From Rubidibacter lacunae KORDI 51-2 (GTDB lineage: Bacteria; Cyanobacteriota; Cyanobacteriia; Cyanobacteriales; Rubidibacteraceae), in contig NZ_ASSJ01000001.1 of NCBI RefSeq assembly GCF_000473895.1, positions 1-64,000 on the forward strand: a DNA stretch of 64,000 nucleotides, given 5' to 3'. Below the pieces are notes generated by a model, which was not told the DNA's origin, did not search any database, and was given only the letters and a program-made list of their open reading frames with translations. Positions 638-60,695 of this stretch are shown here, piece by piece. The position numbers and the translations under genes are program-made. Position 1 is the stretch's first letter, and the number at the start of each line of letters is the position of its first letter.

Positions 638-3600
638 GTGTTGAAGTCTCCGTCCGAGTTGCTTCCCGTGTTTGCAGATACCGCGAACGATGTCGCGATC
701 GCGAGCGTATCGTCGGAAGCGCCCGCCAGTATCTTCGCGGATGACTTCGACCCAAACATCGACCCCACGCTCTGGGCGGAGATTAGCGGTGGCACAGCCA
801 ACACCCAGTTTACGGGTAGCAACGGTAACTCGCTGTTCTTTAGCGGCTCAGATCCGCGCCAGGCCATTACGAATCCGATCGAGATCGCGAACGGCGGGAC
901 AATTGAATTCGACCTAATTTTCGGTACGAGCGGCAACGGCGGGGAAAATGCGGATGACGGCGAGGATGTGGTGCTGGAATATAGTACCGACGGCGCTACT
1001 TTTAGGACCATCGCTACCTACGACACCGAAAACTTTCCTGTTTTTACGACGGTAACCGCAGCGGTTCCGGCTGCAGCACAGACCGCCGGCACGCAGTTTC
1101 GATGGCGCCAGGTCAGTAACAGTGGTGGTGGCAACGATCAGTGGGCGATCGACAACGTCTCCATTGTCCCCAACGAAGGTTTAAGCATCGATGATGCCAG
1201 CGTCATTGAGGGCGACAGCGGCACGATAACGGCGCTGTTTACCGTCACGCTGTTTGACGATCCGGGCATCCCTGTCACGGTCGATTACGCTACTGCGGAC
1301 GGAAGCGCCACGATTTCCGGTGGCGACTACATCGCGACCAGCGGCACCCTGACCTTCAATGGGGCAGGCTCGCAAACAGTTGCGGTGATAGTTAACGGCG
1401 ACCTAACCAGCGAAAGCAGCGAGACCTTCACGCTGGAGCTGAGTAATGCCAATCATCCGATCCTCGACGGCAGCGGCACCGTCACAATTTTCAATGACGA
1501 CCTCTTAGAGGTAGACCTAGAGCTGTCGCTGCTGATTGACGTTTCGGGAAGCGTGAGCGAGGGTGAGTACGAGCTGCAGGTAGGCGGTTATGCCAACGTT
1601 TTCGACGATCCGACTATTTACACTAACTTGATTGCTGGGGGTATCGAAGGGCGCGTCGGCATAAACGTCGTGCTCTGGTCGAGCAACACCGAGCAGGTGG
1701 AGTCCGTGCCCTGGACGGTCATCGACAGCGTGGAATCGTCTCAGGCGTTTGCCAACACGATCCGCTCGACATTGCTGCCAGACTTCGGCGGCACCCGCCC
1801 CTTCAATGGCGGCACCGATCCGGGACCGGCAATCGAATTCGCGACACCGTTGTTTTTCAGCAACGATCTCGACGGACGCTTTCTTGCGATGGAAGTGTCT
1901 GGAGACGGTTCGGGGAACGCCAGCACAACTTCAGCTGCGCGCGATCGCGCCCTGGAAGCAGGCATTGACGCCATCAATGGCATCACAATTGGCAACAGTA
2001 GCTCGCTGCAGAACTTCTATAGGGATTCGTTGATTGGCGGCACCAACGCCGACGGCACACCTGCATTCATCGTCGAAGCCAATACCTTCAGCGAATTTGA
2101 GGCCGCCGCACGCCAGAAGCTCATTGCCCAATTGACGCCGCCACCGCAGATTACCATCGACGACGTGGCAATTGCCGAGGGCAACGCCGGCACCACCACG
2201 CTGACGTTTACGCTTTCGCTCAACCGCCCCAACGACCAGCTCATTAGCGTCGATTTTGCCTCTCGCGACCTAAGTGTCGGTGATATCGCAGAAGCAGGCA
2301 TTGACTACTTAGCGACGAACGGCACGGTAACCTTTGCAATTGGCACCACAACGCAAACGGTGACAGTGGACCTGCTCGGCGACCTGACGCGCGAGCCAGA
2401 CGAGCGCTTCGAACTAGTTCTGAGCAACTCGGTCAACGGTGACATCCTGGACGGCACGGGCATCGGCACGATTCTCAACGACGACCTGCCCGACCTCAGT
2501 TTTGTCAGCACCAGTGTCTCGCCGGACCCCGTCAGCCCCCTTGAATCGTTTACCCTCGAGTGGAGCGTCGCCAACTCGAGTCCGTTCGGAACGCTCGCGA
2601 CCTGGGCCGACGCGGTGTTTTTGTCGGCCGACGCGGTGCTAGACAGCGGGGATATCCAGCTCGCCAGTCGCAACAGCACGCCGCTGGGAGCCGGAGATTC
2701 TTACACGCGCAGCGCGACGCTGGCCTTTCCCGAGCGCGCGGCGGGGACGTATTCGCTCATCTTTGTGACGGACCGTGCGGATGCCGAAGCCGAGCTCGAA
2801 GAGAGTAACAATAAAACCGTCGTTCCGCTTGAGGTTGTCGTCCCGAACTTAGAGATTACAGACGTCTCGCTGCCCGAGACAGCAGCATTTGGCAGCGCGA
2901 TCGCCACTTCCTGGACGGTAACAAACACCGGCAGCGGACGCGCATCGGCCAACTGGCTCGATCGCGTGTACCTCTCAACAGACGCCACCCTCGATGCCGG
3001 CGACGTAATTTTGCAAGCCTTGGCGGCACCGCAGACCCTTGAGTCGGGAGTCAGCTATAGGCAAATCCAGTCGATTTCCTTGCCGCTGGATGCCAGCCTG
3101 GAGCCGGGTGATTATTTCGTGCTGGTCGAGACCGACGAGCGCGGCGACCAGTTCGAGACCGATGAGGATGATAACGCCATCGCTGTTCCGATCGCTCTGG
3201 AGTTTCCTCCCCTGCCCGATCTCATCGTATCGGTCATTGCCGCTCCCTTAGAAGCTATCTCAGGACAACAGATTCCTATCACTTGGACCCTAACCAACCA
3301 GGGAACTGCCGACTTCTCAGGAACCATCCAGGATCGGATTTTTCTCTCCAGCGATCGATTCTTTGGCGACGATCGATTCTATGGGAGCTTTGACTTTACC
3401 GGCACCATCGCCGTAGGTCAGTCCATTAATCGGACTCAGCTCATTAATCTACCGATTACCTTGGGTGATGACCGATTTGCCATCATCCAAACCGATGTGC
3501 TCGATGATGTCTTTGAGGGGCTAACGGGGGAAGCCAACAATCAAACCGTTGGTGACACCCTCATTGACATTGAACTTGCGCAGTTCCCCAATCTTCAAGC

Positions 3601-6600
3601 AGAGAATGTGCTCGCGCCCAGTATTGTCTTCTCTAGTCAGGAAACCCTAGTGGAATGGGAGGTGGTCAATGTTGGCAATGCCCCCACTAATGTCCCGCGC
3701 TGGAATGACGGAATTTGGCTCTCCCTCGATCGGGTTTTAGACGGGGGCGATTTTTTCCTGGGGAACGCTGTTAACCCAAGTTTTCTCGCGGTTGGCGACC
3801 GTTACCGCAATAGCCAAGTGGTCACGCTACCGGAAGGCTTGGACGGAAATTACTTTTTCCTGGTTCAAGCGGACAGCAATACCGCTGTCGTGGAATTTGA
3901 AGCCGAAGACGATAACTTAGCCGCCAGTGAGCTGGTGGAGGTTGAACTGACACCGCCCCCAGATTTGACTGTCAGTGTGGTCAGCTTGCCGAGTTTAGTT
4001 TTCTCTGGAACTCAAGTCGACGTCAATTGGACAGTTACCAATGTTGGCGAAGGTCGCTCCTTGGAAACCCGTTGGCGCGATCGAGTTTATCTTTCGACGG
4101 ATGAGTTTCGCGGGAACGATACTCTCCTTGCCACGGTGGGGCGCAACGGTCGTTTAGAAGCGGGAGACAGCTACAGTGCGTCAGCGGCGGTAGAGCTGCC
4201 TCCAGAAATTAGCGGTGACTTTTTCATTCTTGTCGAGACCGATGCAGGCAACCAGGTATTTGAGGGCGCTTTAGAAACGAACAATATCGGGTTCGACTCG
4301 ACAGAAATTTTGCTGACGCCGCCTCCGGATTTGGAAGTCACCTTTGTAACAGCGCCCGCCATTGCTACTGCCAGCCGCTCTTTCAGTGTTTCCTATGGTG
4401 TCACCAATTTTGGGGCAACGGCAACTCTGGATGCTAACTGGAGCGATGCTGTTTATCTGTCCTCTGATTCCCAACTTGACCCCAGCAGCGACCTGTTTTT
4501 GGGGTTCGTCAATCGCCAGGGGGCTCTAGACATTGGCGAATCCTACACCGCCACTGGCAACTTCACACTACCCGACGGGCTAAGCGGTGACTTTTTTGTC
4601 ATCGTTCAGACCGACGACAGCGATGGCGTCTTCGAACTTGATAACGACAACAACGCCAATGGGAGTCCCAGCGTCACGACCATAACTTCCGAGCCAGCGG
4701 ATCTCCTTGTGAGCCAAGTGCAAGCTCTCAGCAGCGTCGAAGCCGGCAAGAGTTTGCTGGTGGCGTGGCAAGTGCTCAATCAAGGGATTGGTGACACCGC
4801 AGTAACCGGATGGCAGGACCACATTGTCCTCTCCCTAGACGATATCTACGGCAACGCCGACGATGTCACGATCGGCACATTTGTTCGCAATAGTCTGCTT
4901 GATGTTGACGAAACTTACACTCGTAGCCAAGCCCTTGCCATTCCTTTTGAGCTGGTGGGCAACTTCAACCTGTTTGTGGAAACCGATCGCAAAAACCGGG
5001 TGTTTGAGGATCTTAACGAAGGCAATAACCTCAGCGGACCCCTGCCCGTTACGATAACCCGCCAAACCCCGGATTTACAGGTGACCAGTGTTGTGCCCCC
5101 AATCAGCGCCCTTTCCGGTCAAACCTTTAGCGTTAACTGGACGGTCCGCAACTTCGGCACGGGTCAAACCAACGCCAACTTTTGGTACGACGAAGTTTAT
5201 CTGTCGACGGATGATATCTTGAGCAGCGACGACCGGCCCCTTGGTCGGGTGATTCGCTCCGGTCGTTTGGACCCTGGGGAAAGCTACACCGCCAATGGCA
5301 CCTTTACCCTCCCTCTCGAGCTCGTAGGTGACTTCTTTGTTTTGGTAGAAAGCGATCGCAATAGCGTCAATTCCCGCAACAATAACCAGGTCTTTGAAGA
5401 TAGCCTCGAAACTAATAATGTAGGTGCCAGTGAGCAGCTCACAACCATTGCCCCTAGCCCTGTGCCCGATTTGGTGGTCAGTGTTGTTGACGCCCCCTTA
5501 ACCGCCATTAGTGGTCAAAACTTCGACTTAACCTGGACTGTAACCAATCAAGGTCAAGCGCTCAGCGACGATATCAACCGTAATGTTTTTTATCTGTCCC
5601 TGGATCAAATTTTCGATCGCAACCAGGATACCTACCTAGGCTTTGTGGAGCAGAGTGCCGGGCTCGGGGCCGGGGAAAGCCTTACCCAGACAGTATCTCT
5701 GCGTATTCCCGCCGGATTAGCTGGACCCTTCTACGTATTCGCAGAAGCCGACAACGGAAACCGTATTTTCGAGCGCGGAGGTGAAAACAATAACCGCAGC
5801 TACGACACCACCTCGGTGGACGTAATTTTGCCTCCTCCAGCAGATCTGTCTGCCACGGCTATTACCCCGCCAGCCATCGGCATTATTGGTGAGAGCAGCA
5901 CCATAAGCTACACCGTCACCAATCTCAGTGCTGAATCAGTCCAAGGCCGCTGGACCGATTCTCTCTATCTCTCCGTCGATGAGACCTTCGACGCTAGCGA
6001 TCGCCTATTTTCCCAGATTCCGCTCGGGGGACCGATTGGCTCAAACACCAGCTATAGTCGCTCCGCCACTGCCCCCCTACCCGGACTGGTTCCGGGGGAT
6101 TATTTCGTGATTTTGCGGAGCGACATCCGTAACGAAGTGCCCGAAGCTGACGAAGCCAACAACCTGGGGGTTTCTCTGGGTCAAATCAGCGTGGATATCG
6201 AGTCCCTCCCCTTAGGGGGCAGCGACAGCGACCAATTGGTTGACGGTCAAGCCATTTACTACCGCATTGACGCCCCGGCCGGGGAGTCCATCCGCCTGAG
6301 CTTGGATAGCCTCGATGACACCGTTAGCACCGAGCTCTTTGTCCGCTTTGGGGATGTTCCGACTCGGGGGCAGTTCGACTTTGTTGGCGAACCGTTTGTC
6401 GCCGATCAAGAAATCGTTTTTCCCTCGGAAGCCGGTGGCTCTTATTACGTTTTACTCTTTGGCGACAATCTGCCCAATCCGTCTGACTATACCCTCAGCG
6501 CCGAAACCATTCCATTCTCTCTGTCCGAAACGGATCCGCTGACAGTCGGCACCAGTGGCCCCTTTACCCTAGAACTCGAGGGTGCTCGATTCGATAGTGA

Positions 6601-9600
6601 GACTGACTTTCGGCTGGTTACTCCCGACGGGCAGGTTATCGAGCCCATTGCTTTGGTGCGAGAAAATTCCACAAAAGCTTTTGTCACGTTTGGTTTGGAA
6701 GATGCGCCCTTGGGCATCTATGACATTCAAGCGGAAGCTGGAGATGGTGACATTGCCGAGCTGACCGATGCGCTAACGGTAATTGCCGGAGAGGGGGAGA
6801 ATTTCATCGCTCGCATTGAAGGACCAGCCCGGGTTCGGCCGCGGGTCAGCTACGCCGCTAGAATTGACTATGCCAACGCTGGGGATGTGGACAGTGCCGC
6901 CGCGTTAGTCATTTTACGCAGTGAAACCGGAACTCCCCTAGGGGCCGATTTTGATGACATTGCGCCCCGCAATGGCTTGCATCTACTGGCAATTGGTGAT
7001 GACGTCCGACCGGATACCCTGCGCCCCGGCGAACTAAGTTCGGTGCCGTTCTTCTACCGCGTAGACGGAGCTGCCGTCAGTATTGACACTTTTATCTACC
7101 GAGCAGACAGCACAACCGTCATTACCGAAGTGGAATGGAGAGAGATCGAAGCGGCTATCCGACCGCCAGAATTGAGCGATGCTCAATGGAATCCATTCTG
7201 GGCTGAGGTACAGCCGCGCATTGGGGAAAACTGGGGCGACTACGTTTCTGTGCTCAATGAACTGGCAATCGCCTTTGACGAGCCCAGCGATCGTCCCTTC
7301 GATGTTCGGGAATTGATTGCCAAATTCTTTGAGAGTGGAGATCTGTCAGTATTCTCCCAAAAATCAAGGGTTTCCGGGCGAATTTTCGATAGTGAAACGG
7401 GTGAACCTGTGGCGTCTCCTGGACTATTTCTTTACCAAGAAAAAGACGGAGAAGTGACAGCTCTACAGGTTTTTGCCGCAGATGCGGACGGCCGCTTTGA
7501 GCTTAATTCTTTAGAACCAGGCACTTACTTCCTCGGCGGCTACAACAGCTTTCGCCTCAGCGAGCGGGTCGACGTTCCAGAAGTAACAGGACCCCTTAGC
7601 TTCGATCCCACTGCCATCATATTTACGGTTGCTGAAGGACAGGATCTCACCGGACTGCAATTCAATCTGAATCCGCCCCAGGAATCCCAACCTTTAGAGG
7701 TCGATCCAAGTGATTTTGGACAAGAATACGAGGTTCTCATTGCTGACCTAGAGGCTAGCCTCGCAGAACTGGAGGAAGCGATCGCCACTGGGTCGGGAGC
7801 TGGAGCTCAAAGTTTTGCTGCGACCAGAACCATTGACGTTACGGCCATTGAAATTGACTCGGTAGTCAGCAGTGCTGCGGATGCCAGGGTGAGCAACAGC
7901 AACTTACCCGTTCCCCTTCCCAGTCCTAATTTGCCCGAGAGAAACCCCGGCGGCCGCCTATCCATTAAGATCCCCGAATTAGGCAGCCTTGCTCTGGGTG
8001 TTAACCGCAAAGAAGAACGGACCTGCGAAGGGGCATTCGTGAGAACCACCTATGGAGGGCTGCTCACAGTCGACAACTTTCTTGGGGTTGGCGATCTAAG
8101 CGGGGTTGGTGTTATTGCTATTCCCGTCAGAACTGATTACGACTTAGTTAAACAAGGGAATGAATGCGTCTATAGACTGACTTCTACAACCCTATCCGCT
8201 TCTGGTGGCGTTGGAGTAAAGGGGGACGCACTTGCACTGCTTGACGTAGTAGCACGATTTGCCCCTCCCGCCGTTCCAATTGTGAATTTTATTCGAAAGA
8301 CTATTAAACGAATTAATGATGTTTCGAGTGTATTCGAGCTAAGTGGCGAAATCCTTGCCAAAGTGGGGATTACCGGCGCGCTCAAACTTTTCCCCGACGG
8401 CACTGCCTCCGGTCGCATTACCGCCGATGTTGGAGCCTCTGGTCGGGCATTAATTCAGTTTCCCGGCATACGGTCCGGAAATGGCTTTCTGGGCGAAACC
8501 GATCTAGTAGTATCGGTCAACTTGGACGCCAATATTCCCCTAGCCGGTCCCCAATCACTGGGGCAGACCAAAATATCCGGTACTGCCACTTTCTTTGGAA
8601 TTCTTGTGGGTCAAAATGTAAATCTTACGTTTGAATTTTTCAAAAATGGGGGCGACGGTGGTGACTTTAGCGACAGGCAGCCGCTGCCAACAGGTTCGTT
8701 TTTCTATGACTTACTCTCAAATAGCCAGGGTTTATCTGGTGGTCCACCGGAAGAATGCGATTGCGACGACGATCCGCCCTATTTGCCGCCCGTTCAGACC
8801 TCCCAGGATCCGAATGACATTATTGGACCGGAGGGATTTGGCGAAGAGAATTGGATTCCGGCTGCTGATATGTTGGAATATCGTATTCGGTTTGAAAACG
8901 ATCCGGAATTCGCCTCGGCACCCGCCCAAGTGGTGCGTATCACTCAGCAACTTGATACCGATCTTGACTTCCGTACCTTCCGAGTGGGGGACTTTGGCTT
9001 TGGTGACCTAATAATAGATGTCCCTGAGAACCGCGCGTTTTATCAAGAGCGTCTGGACTTAACGGCTGAACAAGGTATCTTTGTTGATGTTGTAGCTGGT
9101 ATCGATATTGCTAATGGCGAGGCATTTTGGCAGTTTACCTCCATCGATCCAGCAACTGGCGATCAGCCCTTAGATCCTGCTCTGGGCTTTCTGCCGCCCA
9201 ACCTTACTGCACCTGAGGGAGACGGATTTGTAGAATACACCATCCATCCACGAGCGGACATCGCAACGGGTACGATTATTGATGCCCAAGCGCGAATAGT
9301 TTTTGATATCAACGAACCCATCGACACCCCAGCGATCTTCAATACCTTGGATGCTGAAGCACCGGCCACTGCCGTTGCGACCCTGCAAGGGACAGTAAAC
9401 AGTCCCGAAATTCCATTGAGGTGGTCTGGTCAGGACATTCCGGGCGGCTCCGCACTAGATAGTTTCGATGTCTTTGTTGCCGAAAATGATGGCATTTTCG
9501 AGCCATGGTTGTTGGATACCACTTTAACGGAGGGAGTCTATGTCGGCGAGCCAGGGCGGCGCTATCGTTTCTACGTTCTAGGCACTGACAACGCGGGAAA

Positions 9601-10864
9601 TGTAGAGGCAATTCCTGCGCTCCCGGACGCAGAAACCACTGTGGTCAACGATAACCTGCCACCAGTCGTCAAGTCACCCCTCCCGGAGCAGCAGGTCATT
9701 ACCGGAGAACTTTTTGTCTTCGATTTTGCAGCAGACGCATTTATCGACCCAGATCCGGGAGACATCTTGACCTATAGTGCCAGCCTTAGTGGAGGCACGC
9801 CCCTTCCTGATTGGCTCTCATTCGAAGGCGTTATTCGAACTTTTACGGGAACGCCGCCGGTAGAAGCAGTGGGCGAACTCACTGTTGAAGTGGAAGCGCA
9901 AGATGAAGACGGGGGCATTGCATCAAACACGTTTGCCTTAGTCATTGACGCCGCAGACTTAGAGCCGCCAAATAATCCGCCTGTCGCGACCGACGATACT
10001 GCGATTGCGCGGTTGAATGAAACCTTAACGTTGTCAGCGGCAGACCTACTGGCTAACGATACGGATGCAGATGCGGAGGACATTTTGACCGTAGTAAACG
10101 TGAGTAATCCTCTTAACGGTTCGGTCAGTTTGGATGCCAATGGCGACATTATCTTTACCCCAACAACAGATTTCGTAGGCACAGCCAGTTTTGACTACCA
10201 AATCAATGACGGTAGTGGAGGTACCGCGGTCGCCTCTGTGCTGATTGATGTGCAATCGCCATTTAATGAAGTTCCGGGCACCGGGGGCAATGACGTGTTG
10301 ATCGGCACAACTGGCGACGATAAACTCACGGGTGCAAATGGTCGCGATACTCTCTTGGGGGGCAATGGCAATGACTTGCTTGATGGCGGTCGCGGTCGCG
10401 ATACTCTCTTGGGGGGCAATGGCAATGACTTGCTTGATGGCGGTCGCGGTCGCGATACTCTCTTGGGGGGCAATGGCAATGACTTGCTTGATGGCGGTCG
10501 CGGTCGAGATGTTCTCTTAGGGGGCGATGGCGATGACTTACTCGATGGCGGTCGCGGCAGTGACTCAATCAGCGGTGGTTCAGGTCGAGATGTTTTTGTT
10601 TACAACAACGTTCGGCATGGGCTCGATCTAATCGTTGATTTCGAAGTAGGTTTCGATAAAATCGATTTAAGTGCCATCTTCGAGTCATCCAGATATGGCA
10701 GCCAGGATCCATTTGCCGACTATGTTCGCCTCAGTGCCCAAGGCAGAAGCAATACGCTCCTTGAAGTTAATCCCGTGGGCGATGCTCGAAACCGCTTCCT
10801 TCCCCTGGCGAATCTGCATGGGATATTACCTGATGCTTTAAGTACTGCGGATTTTGTTATATAG
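638..10864 (+). CDS. Giant RTX adhesin-like protein with reelin, Calx-beta, DUF1194 and CARDB modules
   Basis: This 3408-aa protein has no Sec signal peptide and ends in a type I secretion target, so it is probably exported by an ABC/TolC-type system and displayed or released. Modules in order: reelin-like repeat (about 30-172, ending DQWAIDNVSI); Calx-beta (181-288); DUF1194/VWA-like with MIDAS DVSGS (292-498); second Calx-beta (504-616); ten CARDB repeats, most opening PDL or ADL (618-1852); PPC-like domain (1851-1957); carboxypeptidase-regulatory-like domain (2239-2320); an unassigned region; a conserved-repeat domain starting SQDPNDI (about 2720-2905); dystroglycan/cadherin-like (3005-3105); tandem-95/cadherin-like (3110-3205); RTX nonapeptides (3210-3310); C-terminal target. 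Start is GTG 638 with GGAGG eight bases upstream. An adhesive, calcium-dependent role is inference. No T1SS genes lie in the window. Confidence 0.9.
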   Translation: MLKSPSELLPVFADTANDVAIASVSSEAPASIFADDFDPNIDPTLWAEISGGTANTQFTGSNGNSLFFSGSDPRQAITNPIEIANGGTIEFDLIFGTSGNGGENADDGEDVVLEYSTDGATFRTIATYDTENFPVFTTVTAAVPAAAQTAGTQFRWRQVSNSGGGNDQWAIDNVSIVPNEGLSIDDASVIEGDSGTITALFTVTLFDDPGIPVTVDYATADGSATISGGDYIATSGTLTFNGAGSQTVAVIVNGDLTSESSETFTLELSNANHPILDGSGTVTIFNDDLLEVDLELSLLIDVSGSVSEGEYELQVGGYANVFDDPTIYTNLIAGGIEGRVGINVVLWSSNTEQVESVPWTVIDSVESSQAFANTIRSTLLPDFGGTRPFNGGTDPGPAIEFATPLFFSNDLDGRFLAMEVSGDGSGNASTTSAARDRALEAGIDAINGITIGNSSSLQNFYRDSLIGGTNADGTPAFIVEANTFSEFEAAARQKLIAQLTPPPQITIDDVAIAEGNAGTTTLTFTLSLNRPNDQLISVDFASRDLSVGDIAEAGIDYLATNGTVTFAIGTTTQTVTVDLLGDLTREPDERFELVLSNSVNGDILDGTGIGTILNDDLPDLSFVSTSVSPDPVSPLESFTLEWSVANSSPFGTLATWADAVFLSADAVLDSGDIQLASRNSTPLGAGDSYTRSATLAFPERAAGTYSLIFVTDRADAEAELEESNNKTVVPLEVVVPNLEITDVSLPETAAFGSAIATSWTVTNTGSGRASANWLDRVYLSTDATLDAGDVILQALAAPQTLESGVSYRQIQSISLPLDASLEPGDYFVLVETDERGDQFETDEDDNAIAVPIALEFPPLPDLIVSVIAAPLEAISGQQIPITWTLTNQGTADFSGTIQDRIFLSSDRFFGDDRFYGSFDFTGTIAVGQSINRTQLINLPITLGDDRFAIIQTDVLDDVFEGLTGEANNQTVGDTLIDIELAQFPNLQAENVLAPSIVFSSQETLVEWEVVNVGNAPTNVPRWNDGIWLSLDRVLDGGDFFLGNAVNPSFLAVGDRYRNSQVVTLPEGLDGNYFFLVQADSNTAVVEFEAEDDNLAASELVEVELTPPPDLTVSVVSLPSLVFSGTQVDVNWTVTNVGEGRSLETRWRDRVYLSTDEFRGNDTLLATVGRNGRLEAGDSYSASAAVELPPEISGDFFILVETDAGNQVFEGALETNNIGFDSTEILLTPPPDLEVTFVTAPAIATASRSFSVSYGVTNFGATATLDANWSDAVYLSSDSQLDPSSDLFLGFVNRQGALDIGESYTATGNFTLPDGLSGDFFVIVQTDDSDGVFELDNDNNANGSPSVTTITSEPADLLVSQVQALSSVEAGKSLLVAWQVLNQGIGDTAVTGWQDHIVLSLDDIYGNADDVTIGTFVRNSLLDVDETYTRSQALAIPFELVGNFNLFVETDRKNRVFEDLNEGNNLSGPLPVTITRQTPDLQVTSVVPPISALSGQTFSVNWTVRNFGTGQTNANFWYDEVYLSTDDILSSDDRPLGRVIRSGRLDPGESYTANGTFTLPLELVGDFFVLVESDRNSVNSRNNNQVFEDSLETNNVGASEQLTTIAPSPVPDLVVSVVDAPLTAISGQNFDLTWTVTNQGQALSDDINRNVFYLSLDQIFDRNQDTYLGFVEQSAGLGAGESLTQTVSLRIPAGLAGPFYVFAEADNGNRIFERGGENNNRSYDTTSVDVILPPPADLSATAITPPAIGIIGESSTISYTVTNLSAESVQGRWTDSLYLSVDETFDASDRLFSQIPLGGPIGSNTSYSRSATAPLPGLVPGDYFVILRSDIRNEVPEADEANNLGVSLGQISVDIESLPLGGSDSDQLVDGQAIYYRIDAPAGESIRLSLDSLDDTVSTELFVRFGDVPTRGQFDFVGEPFVADQEIVFPSEAGGSYYVLLFGDNLPNPSDYTLSAETIPFSLSETDPLTVGTSGPFTLELEGARFDSETDFRLVTPDGQVIEPIALVRENSTKAFVTFGLEDAPLGIYDIQAEAGDGDIAELTDALTVIAGEGENFIARIEGPARVRPRVSYAARIDYANAGDVDSAAALVILRSETGTPLGADFDDIAPRNGLHLLAIGDDVRPDTLRPGELSSVPFFYRVDGAAVSIDTFIYRADSTTVITEVEWREIEAAIRPPELSDAQWNPFWAEVQPRIGENWGDYVSVLNELAIAFDEPSDRPFDVRELIAKFFESGDLSVFSQKSRVSGRIFDSETGEPVASPGLFLYQEKDGEVTALQVFAADADGRFELNSLEPGTYFLGGYNSFRLSERVDVPEVTGPLSFDPTAIIFTVAEGQDLTGLQFNLNPPQESQPLEVDPSDFGQEYEVLIADLEASLAELEEAIATGSGAGAQSFAATRTIDVTAIEIDSVVSSAADARVSNSNLPVPLPSPNLPERNPGGRLSIKIPELGSLALGVNRKEERTCEGAFVRTTYGGLLTVDNFLGVGDLSGVGVIAIPVRTDYDLVKQGNECVYRLTSTTLSASGGVGVKGDALALLDVVARFAPPAVPIVNFIRKTIKRINDVSSVFELSGEILAKVGITGALKLFPDGTASGRITADVGASGRALIQFPGIRSGNGFLGETDLVVSVNLDANIPLAGPQSLGQTKISGTATFFGILVGQNVNLTFEFFKNGGDGGDFSDRQPLPTGSFFYDLLSNSQGLSGGPPEECDCDDDPPYLPPVQTSQDPNDIIGPEGFGEENWIPAADMLEYRIRFENDPEFASAPAQVVRITQQLDTDLDFRTFRVGDFGFGDLIIDVPENRAFYQERLDLTAEQGIFVDVVAGIDIANGEAFWQFTSIDPATGDQPLDPALGFLPPNLTAPEGDGFVEYTIHPRADIATGTIIDAQARIVFDINEPIDTPAIFNTLDAEAPATAVATLQGTVNSPEIPLRWSGQDIPGGSALDSFDVFVAENDGIFEPWLLDTTLTEGVYVGEPGRRYRFYVLGTDNAGNVEAIPALPDAETTVVNDNLPPVVKSPLPEQQVITGELFVFDFAADAFIDPDPGDILTYSASLSGGTPLPDWLSFEGVIRTFTGTPPVEAVGELTVEVEAQDEDGGIASNTFALVIDAADLEPPNNPPVATDDTAIARLNETLTLSAADLLANDTDADAEDILTVVNVSNPLNGSVSLDANGDIIFTPTTDFVGTASFDYQINDGSGGTAVASVLIDVQSPFNEVPGTGGNDVLIGTTGDDKLTGANGRDTLLGGNGNDLLDGGRGRDTLLGGNGNDLLDGGRGRDTLLGGNGNDLLDGGRGRDVLLGGDGDDLLDGGRGSDSISGGSGRDVFVYNNVRHGLDLIVDFEVGFDKIDLSAIFESSRYGSQDPFADYVRLSAQGRSNTLLEVNPVGDARNRFLPLANLHGILPDALSTADFVI
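10341..10556 (+). repeat. 54-bp tandem repeat encoding RTX motifs
   Basis: Three consecutive 54-bp units at 10341-10394, 10395-10448 and 10449-10502 are identical base for base. A fourth unit at 10503-10556 is diverged but in register. Each unit encodes 18 residues, that is two RTX nonapeptides of the form GGNGNDLLD and GGRGRDTLL. Perfect identity at DNA level points to recent amplification or gene conversion, since synonymous drift would otherwise have accumulated. Confidence 0.95.
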
Positions 10865-59402: not shown

Positions 59403-60695
59403 ATGCTGCGAATCATCACTAATGTTGCCGAGGCTCGGATGGAGCTGCGGCGTATCGGCAACCGCATTCGCGACATTCAAATTGCCGACCGGGAAGCGGC
59501 CGTGCGCGAGCTGTTCGGTCGAGTTCGGCGTATCGGCGATCGCGCGATCTTTGAAGCCGGCGCCCGCGAACCGCTCCGCACGACTGGCTCGGAACTGGAT
59601 GCAGCGTATCAACAGCTTTCCAAAGAAGCTATCGACGCCCTGCGCGCAGCCTATCGCGAGGTCGAGGCCTTTCACCGCCAGCAACTGCTGCACCCCTGGG
59701 TGCAGTTCGGCGCGGGCGGACGCGTCTGGGGTCGGCGCTACCAGCCAGTGGATTGCGCGGGGATTTATGTGGACGGCGGTCAGTCCGCTGGCGCAGCAAC
59801 GACGATCGCCCTGGCAGTGCCAGCTCGAATAGCGGGCGTGGCGCGCGCGGTTTTAGTTGCAGCCCCGGAAGCCGACGGGCGCGTGCACCCAGCCGTCCTG
59901 GTGGCAGCGCAGGAAGCAGGCATTACCGAGATCTATCGCGTGCGGGGAGCTGCCGCGATCGCAGCGCTAACGTACGGTACCGAGACGATTCCTGCCGCCA
60001 ATGCAATCGCGGGGGTCGGCGATGTGGATGTGGCGCTGGCGAAACAGCTGGCCTACGGCACGACGGGCGTTGACGGGCTGCAGGGACTGACGGAGTTGGC
60101 AATCGTGGCTGATGACAGTGCCGACCCAGCAATAGTGGCCGCAGATATGCTGGCCGAAGCCGAACGGGATTCGATGGCAGCTGCCGTGTTGCTGACAGCA
60201 GACATCGATTTTGCCCGGGGTGTTCAAAAGGCTGTAGAGCAATTGCTGCCAGCACACCCGCGCCGGACGCTCGCTGAAAAGGCGATCGCCCATTACGGAT
60301 CGATTGCGGTAGTCGGGTCGATGGCTGAGGCGATCGCGCTAGCAAACGAGTTTGCGCCTGAGCGTCTAGCACTTGCAGTGCGGGATCCGTGGGCGCTGCT
60401 GGAGTCGGTGCGCCATGCAGGGACGATTTTCCTCGGGCAAGAAACTCCTTTGGCGGCGGGCGATTACCTGGCTGGCTGCGATCGCGCCTTGCCGGCGTCG
60501 GGGGGAGCGCGCTACGCATCTGGTGTGGGCGTAGAGACATTCTTGAAGGCATCTAGATTAGTGCAGTACCCTGCTGCTGCGCTGGAAGGCGGGATAGCGA
60601 CCCTGGCAACGCTTGCCGATTTGGAAGGACGCTACGCCCAAGTCAAGGCTTTATCCCTACGCCAGCAACTGGATGATAAGAGCGCGTTCGGCTGA
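59403..60695 (+). CDS. hisD: Histidinol dehydrogenase homologue lacking catalytic histidines
   Basis: A 430-aa HisD-fold protein of normal length. Family landmarks are RVRRIGD, IYVDGGQSAGAATTIALAVPARIAGV, GAAAIAALTYGTE, VADDSADPAIVAADMLAEAERD, EFAPERLALAV, GTIFLG, AAGDYLAG and SGVGVETFLKASR. By-eye alignment to E. coli HisD gives: Gln259 to Glu252, His262 to Arg255, Glu326 kept (Glu320), His327 to Arg321, Asp360 kept (Asp354), His367 to Arg361, and His419 to Gln413. Most zinc and acid-base residues are therefore gone, and ordinary histidinol oxidation is unlikely. Start ATG 59403 begins MLRIITNVAEA like cyanobacterial HisD; GTG 59391 is an alternative. The symbol marks homology, not proven activity. 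Confidence 0.85.
   Translation: MLRIITNVAEARMELRRIGNRIRDIQIADREAAVRELFGRVRRIGDRAIFEAGAREPLRTTGSELDAAYQQLSKEAIDALRAAYREVEAFHRQQLLHPWVQFGAGGRVWGRRYQPVDCAGIYVDGGQSAGAATTIALAVPARIAGVARAVLVAAPEADGRVHPAVLVAAQEAGITEIYRVRGAAAIAALTYGTETIPAANAIAGVGDVDVALAKQLAYGTTGVDGLQGLTELAIVADDSADPAIVAADMLAEAERDSMAAAVLLTADIDFARGVQKAVEQLLPAHPRRTLAEKAIAHYGSIAVVGSMAEAIALANEFAPERLALAVRDPWALLESVRHAGTIFLGQETPLAAGDYLAGCDRALPASGGARYASGVGVETFLKASRLVQYPAAALEGGIATLATLADLEGRYAQVKALSLRQQLDDKSAFG

Follow-up and report, generated by a model that had tools for sequence, protein, structure and literature searches.

The closest described relatives of the gene analyzed here are the native histidinol dehydrogenases of cyanobacteria (HisD; TIGR00069, PF00815). 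We number residues as in E. coli HisD and take its zinc ligands to be Q259, H262, D360 and H419 (the last donated to the partner subunit), its catalytic pair to be E326–H327, its substrate histidine to be H367, and its NAD and substrate contacts to be Y130, P132, Q188, N211, S237, H367 and E414. A second type within the same Pfam family, here called HisD2, occurs in Chloroflexi and Clostridia and lies next to APH-like and HAD genes or next to hisB. In an unrelated family, the pseudo-orthocaspases of cyanobacteria, catalytic residues have reportedly been lost while the gene was kept. The HisD fold is also found with a changed substrate in HpsN, the DHPS 3-dehydrogenase, which is recognized by a G-R-Y-A/S-H motif together with a zinc site and by a diagnostic His126 (PMC11382572). 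Substitutions E318A and H319A in HpsN (E. coli E326 and H327) cut kcat/KM 580- and 240-fold, respectively, and the D352A protein is inactive (PMC11382572).

Here we describe a HisD-fold protein from Rubidibacter lacunae KORDI 51-2 that departs from all of these. The window, that is, the whole stretch of DNA analyzed, comprises positions 1–64,000 (64,000 nucleotides) of contig NZ_ASSJ01000001.1 (genome G000 in our numbering). Like the native cyanobacterial enzymes, to whose single-copy representatives it is 53–57% identical, the protein has the fold, length and N-terminal arm of HisD and descends vertically, but it lacks H262, H327, H367, H419, Q259, P132, Q188 and N211. With HisD2 it has in common a Glu at 259, whereas overall identity is about 34% and HisD2 proteins have H262, E326, H327 and H419, an A at 367 and either N or T at 360. 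HpsN keeps the zinc ligands and has His126; the window protein has neither, and reads GQSAG in place of the HpsN motif. It resembles the pseudo-orthocaspases in combining catalytic loss with retention of the gene, the difference being that in HisD the loss came after a foreign enzyme displaced the native one, and came repeatedly. A literature search turned up neither an account of a dead cyanobacterial HisD nor one of a replacement for HisB.

Results

An Intact HisD Frame without a HisD Active Site

The reading frame is uninterrupted from ATG to stop, as the initial annotation had stated, with none of the internal stops or frameshifts that mark a pseudogene (Table 1). That annotation had also described a preserved HisD scaffold, and this was borne out by several searches. 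The protein scored 380 bits against PF00815 (profile positions 7–410 of 411) and 353 bits against TIGR00069, for which the equivalog cut-off is 243.8, and a sequence search of the PDB likewise placed it in the HisD family. AlphaFold predicted a HisD fold (pLDDT 84.7), and the best PDB matches of the model were all HisD proteins (4g09, 1k75 and others) with TM scores of about 0.7–0.77; the large rmsd in these matches is probably due to domain arrangement. The ligand loop, residues 360–374 of the window protein, was modeled with pLDDT below 50.

To compare residues, the protein was aligned by MAFFT to E. coli HisD together with sets of 29 to about 100 HisDs from cyanobacteria. The E. coli reference fits in length (434) and at every landmark residue, and E. 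coli HisD (1k75) was also matched independently in the PDB search. The alignments recovered every substitution previously read by eye (H262R, H327R, H367R, H419Q and Q259E), with no histidine shifted to a neighboring column, and both residues reported as retained, E326 and D360, are present. Y130 and E414 are also kept. Further losses had escaped the first reading: P132D, Q188A, P209V, N211D, P236L, S237T and E356L, those at 132, 188, 209 and 211 falling in the NAD site. The four zinc ligands thus read E, R, D and Q, with one of four kept; the catalytic pair has its Glu but Arg for His; and, among the NAD and substrate contacts, Y130 and E414 stand beside P132D, Q188A, N211D, S237T and H367R. 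In all, two of seven key residues are left. Q259E alone is not diagnostic, since HisD2 proteins too have Glu at this position. Intact cyanobacterial HisDs have 197 positions with conservation of 95% or more; of these, the window copy keeps 134 of 183 outside the active site and 4 of 14 within it (Fisher p = 0.001), so active-site loss exceeds chance. We infer from these residues that the protein is without histidinol dehydrogenase activity.

Table 1. Features of the native hisD gene in the window and of the hisD2 locus elsewhere in the genome
Feature	Coordinates	Strand	Remarks
Native cyanobacterial HisD orthologue, predicted catalytically dead	59403..60695	+	430 aa plus stop; ATG start
N-terminal arm MLRIIT..AE...EL.RI..R, residues 1–24	59403..59474	+	Fully retained in eight dead lineages
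GSELDAAYQQ helix, residues 62–71	59586..59615	+	Kept even in most diverged dead copies
E252 (E. coli Q259)	60156..60158	+	Zinc ligand altered (Q259E); alignment
R255 (E. coli H262)	60165..60167	+	Zinc ligand gone (H262R); alignment
E320–R321 (E. coli E326–H327)	60360..60365	+	Glu kept, catalytic His gone (H327R); alignment
D354 (E. coli D360)	60462..60464	+	Zinc ligand retained; alignment
R361 (E. coli H367)	60483..60485	+	Substrate His gone (H367R); inside low-pLDDT loop; alignment, AlphaFold
Q413 (E. coli H419)	60639..60641	+	Partner-subunit zinc ligand gone (H419Q); alignment
hisD2, locus L001	G000 contig C47:59101–60333	-	PF00815
APH-fold gene adjoining hisD2, locus L202:9783–11045	G000 contig C47:57782–59044	-	Kinase motifs intact

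A Native Gene and a Foreign Newcomer

A profile search of the genome found exactly one PF00815 gene besides the window copy, hisD2 on contig C47, and both score above the hisD equivalog cut-off. A second HisD, which the initial annotation had envisaged, is thus present, but it is not the canonical enzyme that was to be looked for: it keeps H262, E326, H327 and H419 and has E259, N360 and A367. E259 and A367 with N or T at 360 form the signature of a subfamily whose members come from Chloroflexi, Ktedonobacter, Clostridia and some cyanobacteria and lack the Asp zinc ligand and the substrate His of textbook HisD. Because a HisD2-type gene is the sole PF00815 gene in many genomes of the subfamily, HisG is present in nearly all tested genomes with this type, and the genes adjoin hisB, hisC-like, hisG and hisZ genes, HisD2 is very probably the working histidinol dehydrogenase of those bacteria. 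The cyanobacterial HisD2s form one clade adjoining Chloroflexi and, as judged from the tree, HisD2 is a foreign gene in cyanobacteria, from a clade shared with Chloroflexi.

The window copy has a different history. Sister genomes in its family each have one intact native HisD and no HisD2, and in a tree built without the other fast-evolving copies it joined G374 (100/92) and then G159, both from its own family. A grouping with other dead copies in a fuller tree was read as long-branch attraction, as leaving those copies out placed the window copy in its own family. The window gene is therefore best described, on phylogenetic grounds, as a vertically inherited cyanobacterial HisD, probably displaced by HisD2. 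The roles given in the initial annotation, which had called it a HisD paralogue, are reversed: the native orthologue is the copy in the window, HisD2 being the newcomer. At the ancestral site, hisD lies head to head with rpsT–tatD–rpoB, as the dead copies of G388, G391, G392, G393 and G394 still do. The window gene is no longer beside rpsT, and retention through a promoter region common with rpsT was rejected for it.

Recurrent Loss of Key Residues

Nineteen of the cyanobacterial genomes inspected carry HisD2 alongside a native copy, and in 18 of them the native protein has lost one to five of the seven key residues (G000, G014, G080, G095, G097, G105, G133, G143, G235, G253, G312 and G388–G394), the genomes in these counts being related by kinship and hence not independent. 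Natives are damaged as well in G237 and G357, where HisD2 was inferred from two matches and the genus. Key residues are intact in 67 of 67 single-copy natives, counting G109, the C-terminal residue of which fell outside the stretch read. G193 has HisD2 together with a still intact native copy, which argues that acquisition of HisD2 precedes the damage. Parsimony on the best tree gave five changes for HisD2 and seven for damage; independent contrasts are few, five in all, and the three of them on starred branches all point in the same direction.

Most dead copies are still full-length. The copy of G388 is frameshifted, those of Symploca have one lost residue, G147 has a short native remnant, and G183 and G268 have no native copy, the last three genomes all having HisD2. 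A third HisD type (HD3), with all canonical residues, is present in genomes of the Nostocaceae-like family f6, in which the natives beside it are intact in 12 and damaged in 3. Natives of f6 that are starting to lose key residues are those of G174, G334 and G191 (loci L173, L308 and L225).

The replacements vary by lineage: position 262 is R, Q, K, S or Y; position 367 is R, M, V, L, F, Y or Q or is deleted; and lineage-specific replacements also occur at 327, 356 and 419. No common new residue at the lost positions was found across the aligned dead copies, which argues against one new enzyme and in favor of a role that depends on the scaffold.

Constraint on the Dead Copies

Among the dead copies of seven g24 species dN/dS is 0.05–0.22 at dS of about 0.1–0.16, and it is 0.125 for the dead pair of G392 and G394; these values describe sister lineages, and within-genus dN/dS may trail a recent relaxation. 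The window's genus being represented by one genome, its copy was judged by indirect tests. Neutral simulation of the window copy to 57% identity produced 6.5 stops on average and 0 stop-free runs in 400, and its GC content by codon position (0.74, 0.51 and 0.64) is gene-like. Site retention climbs with conservation, the ratio going up from 0.47 to 0.74 across the four highest bins, and the 14 active-site contact residues were kept at 0.36 on average versus 0.69 for the 183 others (p = 5e-4).

Retention is most complete in the N-terminal arm, where 72 of 72 conserved cells were kept across eight dead lineages as against 1305 of 1816 elsewhere, individual cells not being independent. The SELDAAYQQ helix persists even in G014 and G080, whose copies have no more than about 37% identity with an intact one. 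The loop just upstream of this helix (E. coli 54–64) is shortened in seven dead lineages, including that of the window, and the C-terminal part (E. coli 382–434) is among the less well kept regions.

A Gap at HisB, and Other Observations

Eight genomes with HisD2, that of the window among them, gave no match to HisB (PF00475), which was found in 21 others. Among genomes tested for both, the APH-fold gene that adjoins hisD2 occurs in all eight that lack HisB and is missing from all 19 that have it. In Ktedonobacter and Thermosporothrix, the APH-fold protein and the HAD protein of the cassette form a single fusion; hisA follows directly downstream and hisG is close by. Structural neighbors of the APH-fold protein include the lexapeptide dehydratase complex kinase (9dk3, at rank 37), so a related fold serves dehydration elsewhere. 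Gene content provides a lead here, and the APH-fold protein is a candidate for a non-orthologous replacement of HisB.

In Acetivibrio and related Clostridia, a HisB-like gene beside HisD2 (L104:5306–5938) reaches only 116 bits against IGPD, and its metal motif reads NH or TH instead of the usual HH; HisD and HisB may have changed together in those Clostridia. Elsewhere in the window, positions 638–10864 encode a 3408-aa protein with reelin-like, Calx-beta, seven CARDB, cadherin-like and RTX repeats, which is likely secreted or surface-located; its gene contains a 54-bp tandem repeat at 10340–10557.

Discussion

We propose, with a probability of about two in three, that the ancestral HisD of this lineage was displaced by HisD2 and retained as a pseudoenzyme for a non-catalytic role. 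The observations behind this proposal are the residue losses, the orthology of the window copy, the presence of HisD2, recurrence across cyanobacteria and purifying selection in sister lineages. A foreign HisD2, accompanied by genes for an APH-fold protein and a HAD phosphatase, would have entered the genome and taken over histidinol oxidation. The native HisD, relieved of catalysis, would then have lost its zinc, NAD and substrate residues, while selection would have held its fold, N-terminal arm and SELDAAYQQ helix. The protein would act without catalysis, as a binding, scaffold or regulatory subunit, its N-terminal region most likely binding another macromolecule. The retained non-catalytic role suggested in the initial annotation thus fits the evidence well, whereas the extra paralogue and the canonical partner HisD of that account do not.

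The main rival is slow decay, in which the gene is drifting to loss after displacement and a stop codon has yet to come. Catalytic loss after displacement requires no new role, and decay is real in some lineages, as the series from Symploca through G388 and G147 to G183 and G268 attests. It is nevertheless an unlikely account of the window copy, being a poor fit to the low dN/dS among dead copies, to the absence of stops at 57% identity and to a retention so uneven that the active site is gone and the N-terminal arm kept. Rather less likely still is a regulatory partnership with HisD2, for instance as a dead subunit tuning HisD2 in a mixed dimer. Dead copies do co-occur with HisD2, and HisD-fold enzymes are dimers in which residues are common to the sites of both subunits (PMC11382572). 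The two proteins have, however, little identity and their genes are not adjacent, the C-terminal part is less well kept, HisD2 is found alone in G183, G268 and Ktedonobacter, and a role specific to HisD2 is disfavored because damaged natives occur next to the unrelated HD3 in Nostocaceae. A model in which subunits of the dead copy and of HisD2 complement each other was rejected: a single HisD site draws Q259, H262 and D360 from one chain, and each of the two proteins lacks part of this set.

Conversion to a different enzyme, also raised in the initial annotation and here taken to mean one whose site is altered or works without metal, has become improbable. E326, D360, Y130 and E414 remain, and HpsN illustrates a HisD fold with a changed substrate (PMC11382572), but the lost catalytic positions (262, 327, 356, 367 and 419) are filled differently in each lineage, the NAD contacts are gone, and the 360–374 loop is modeled with low confidence. 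That histidinol is still oxidized through an unusual site is hardly credible: the score above the equivalog cut-off speaks for it, whereas so few key residues are left, HisD2 is in the genome, and HpsN mutants at equivalent positions are severely impaired or inactive (PMC11382572).

If the ancestral HisD was retained as a pseudoenzyme, its non-catalytic role was probably already present in the active ancestor, because several lineages kept the native copy in parallel. Counting against the proposal, the role is dispensable in places, the gene having been lost in G183 and G268, reduced to a remnant in G147 and frameshifted in G388. More tentatively, and as a possibility we consider doubtful, cyanobacterial HisD may have a conserved second, non-catalytic function seated in the N-terminal arm and the SELDAAYQQ helix, for which the dead scaffold is kept after any foreign take-over, and the window's cassette of hisD2, APH-fold gene and HAD phosphatase may also have replaced HisB, the APH-fold protein dehydrating imidazoleglycerol phosphate, perhaps via phosphorylation and elimination.

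The hisD annotation, for which both copies pass the equivalog cut-off, is probably wrong as to function for the native copies in many cyanobacteria, and the gap at HisB suggests that a textbook pathway may include an unrecognized enzyme. Parallel retention of a dead biosynthetic enzyme amounts to a natural experiment, in which the constraint that outlasts catalysis hints at a hidden second function, and a moonlighting role of cyanobacterial HisD becomes directly testable.
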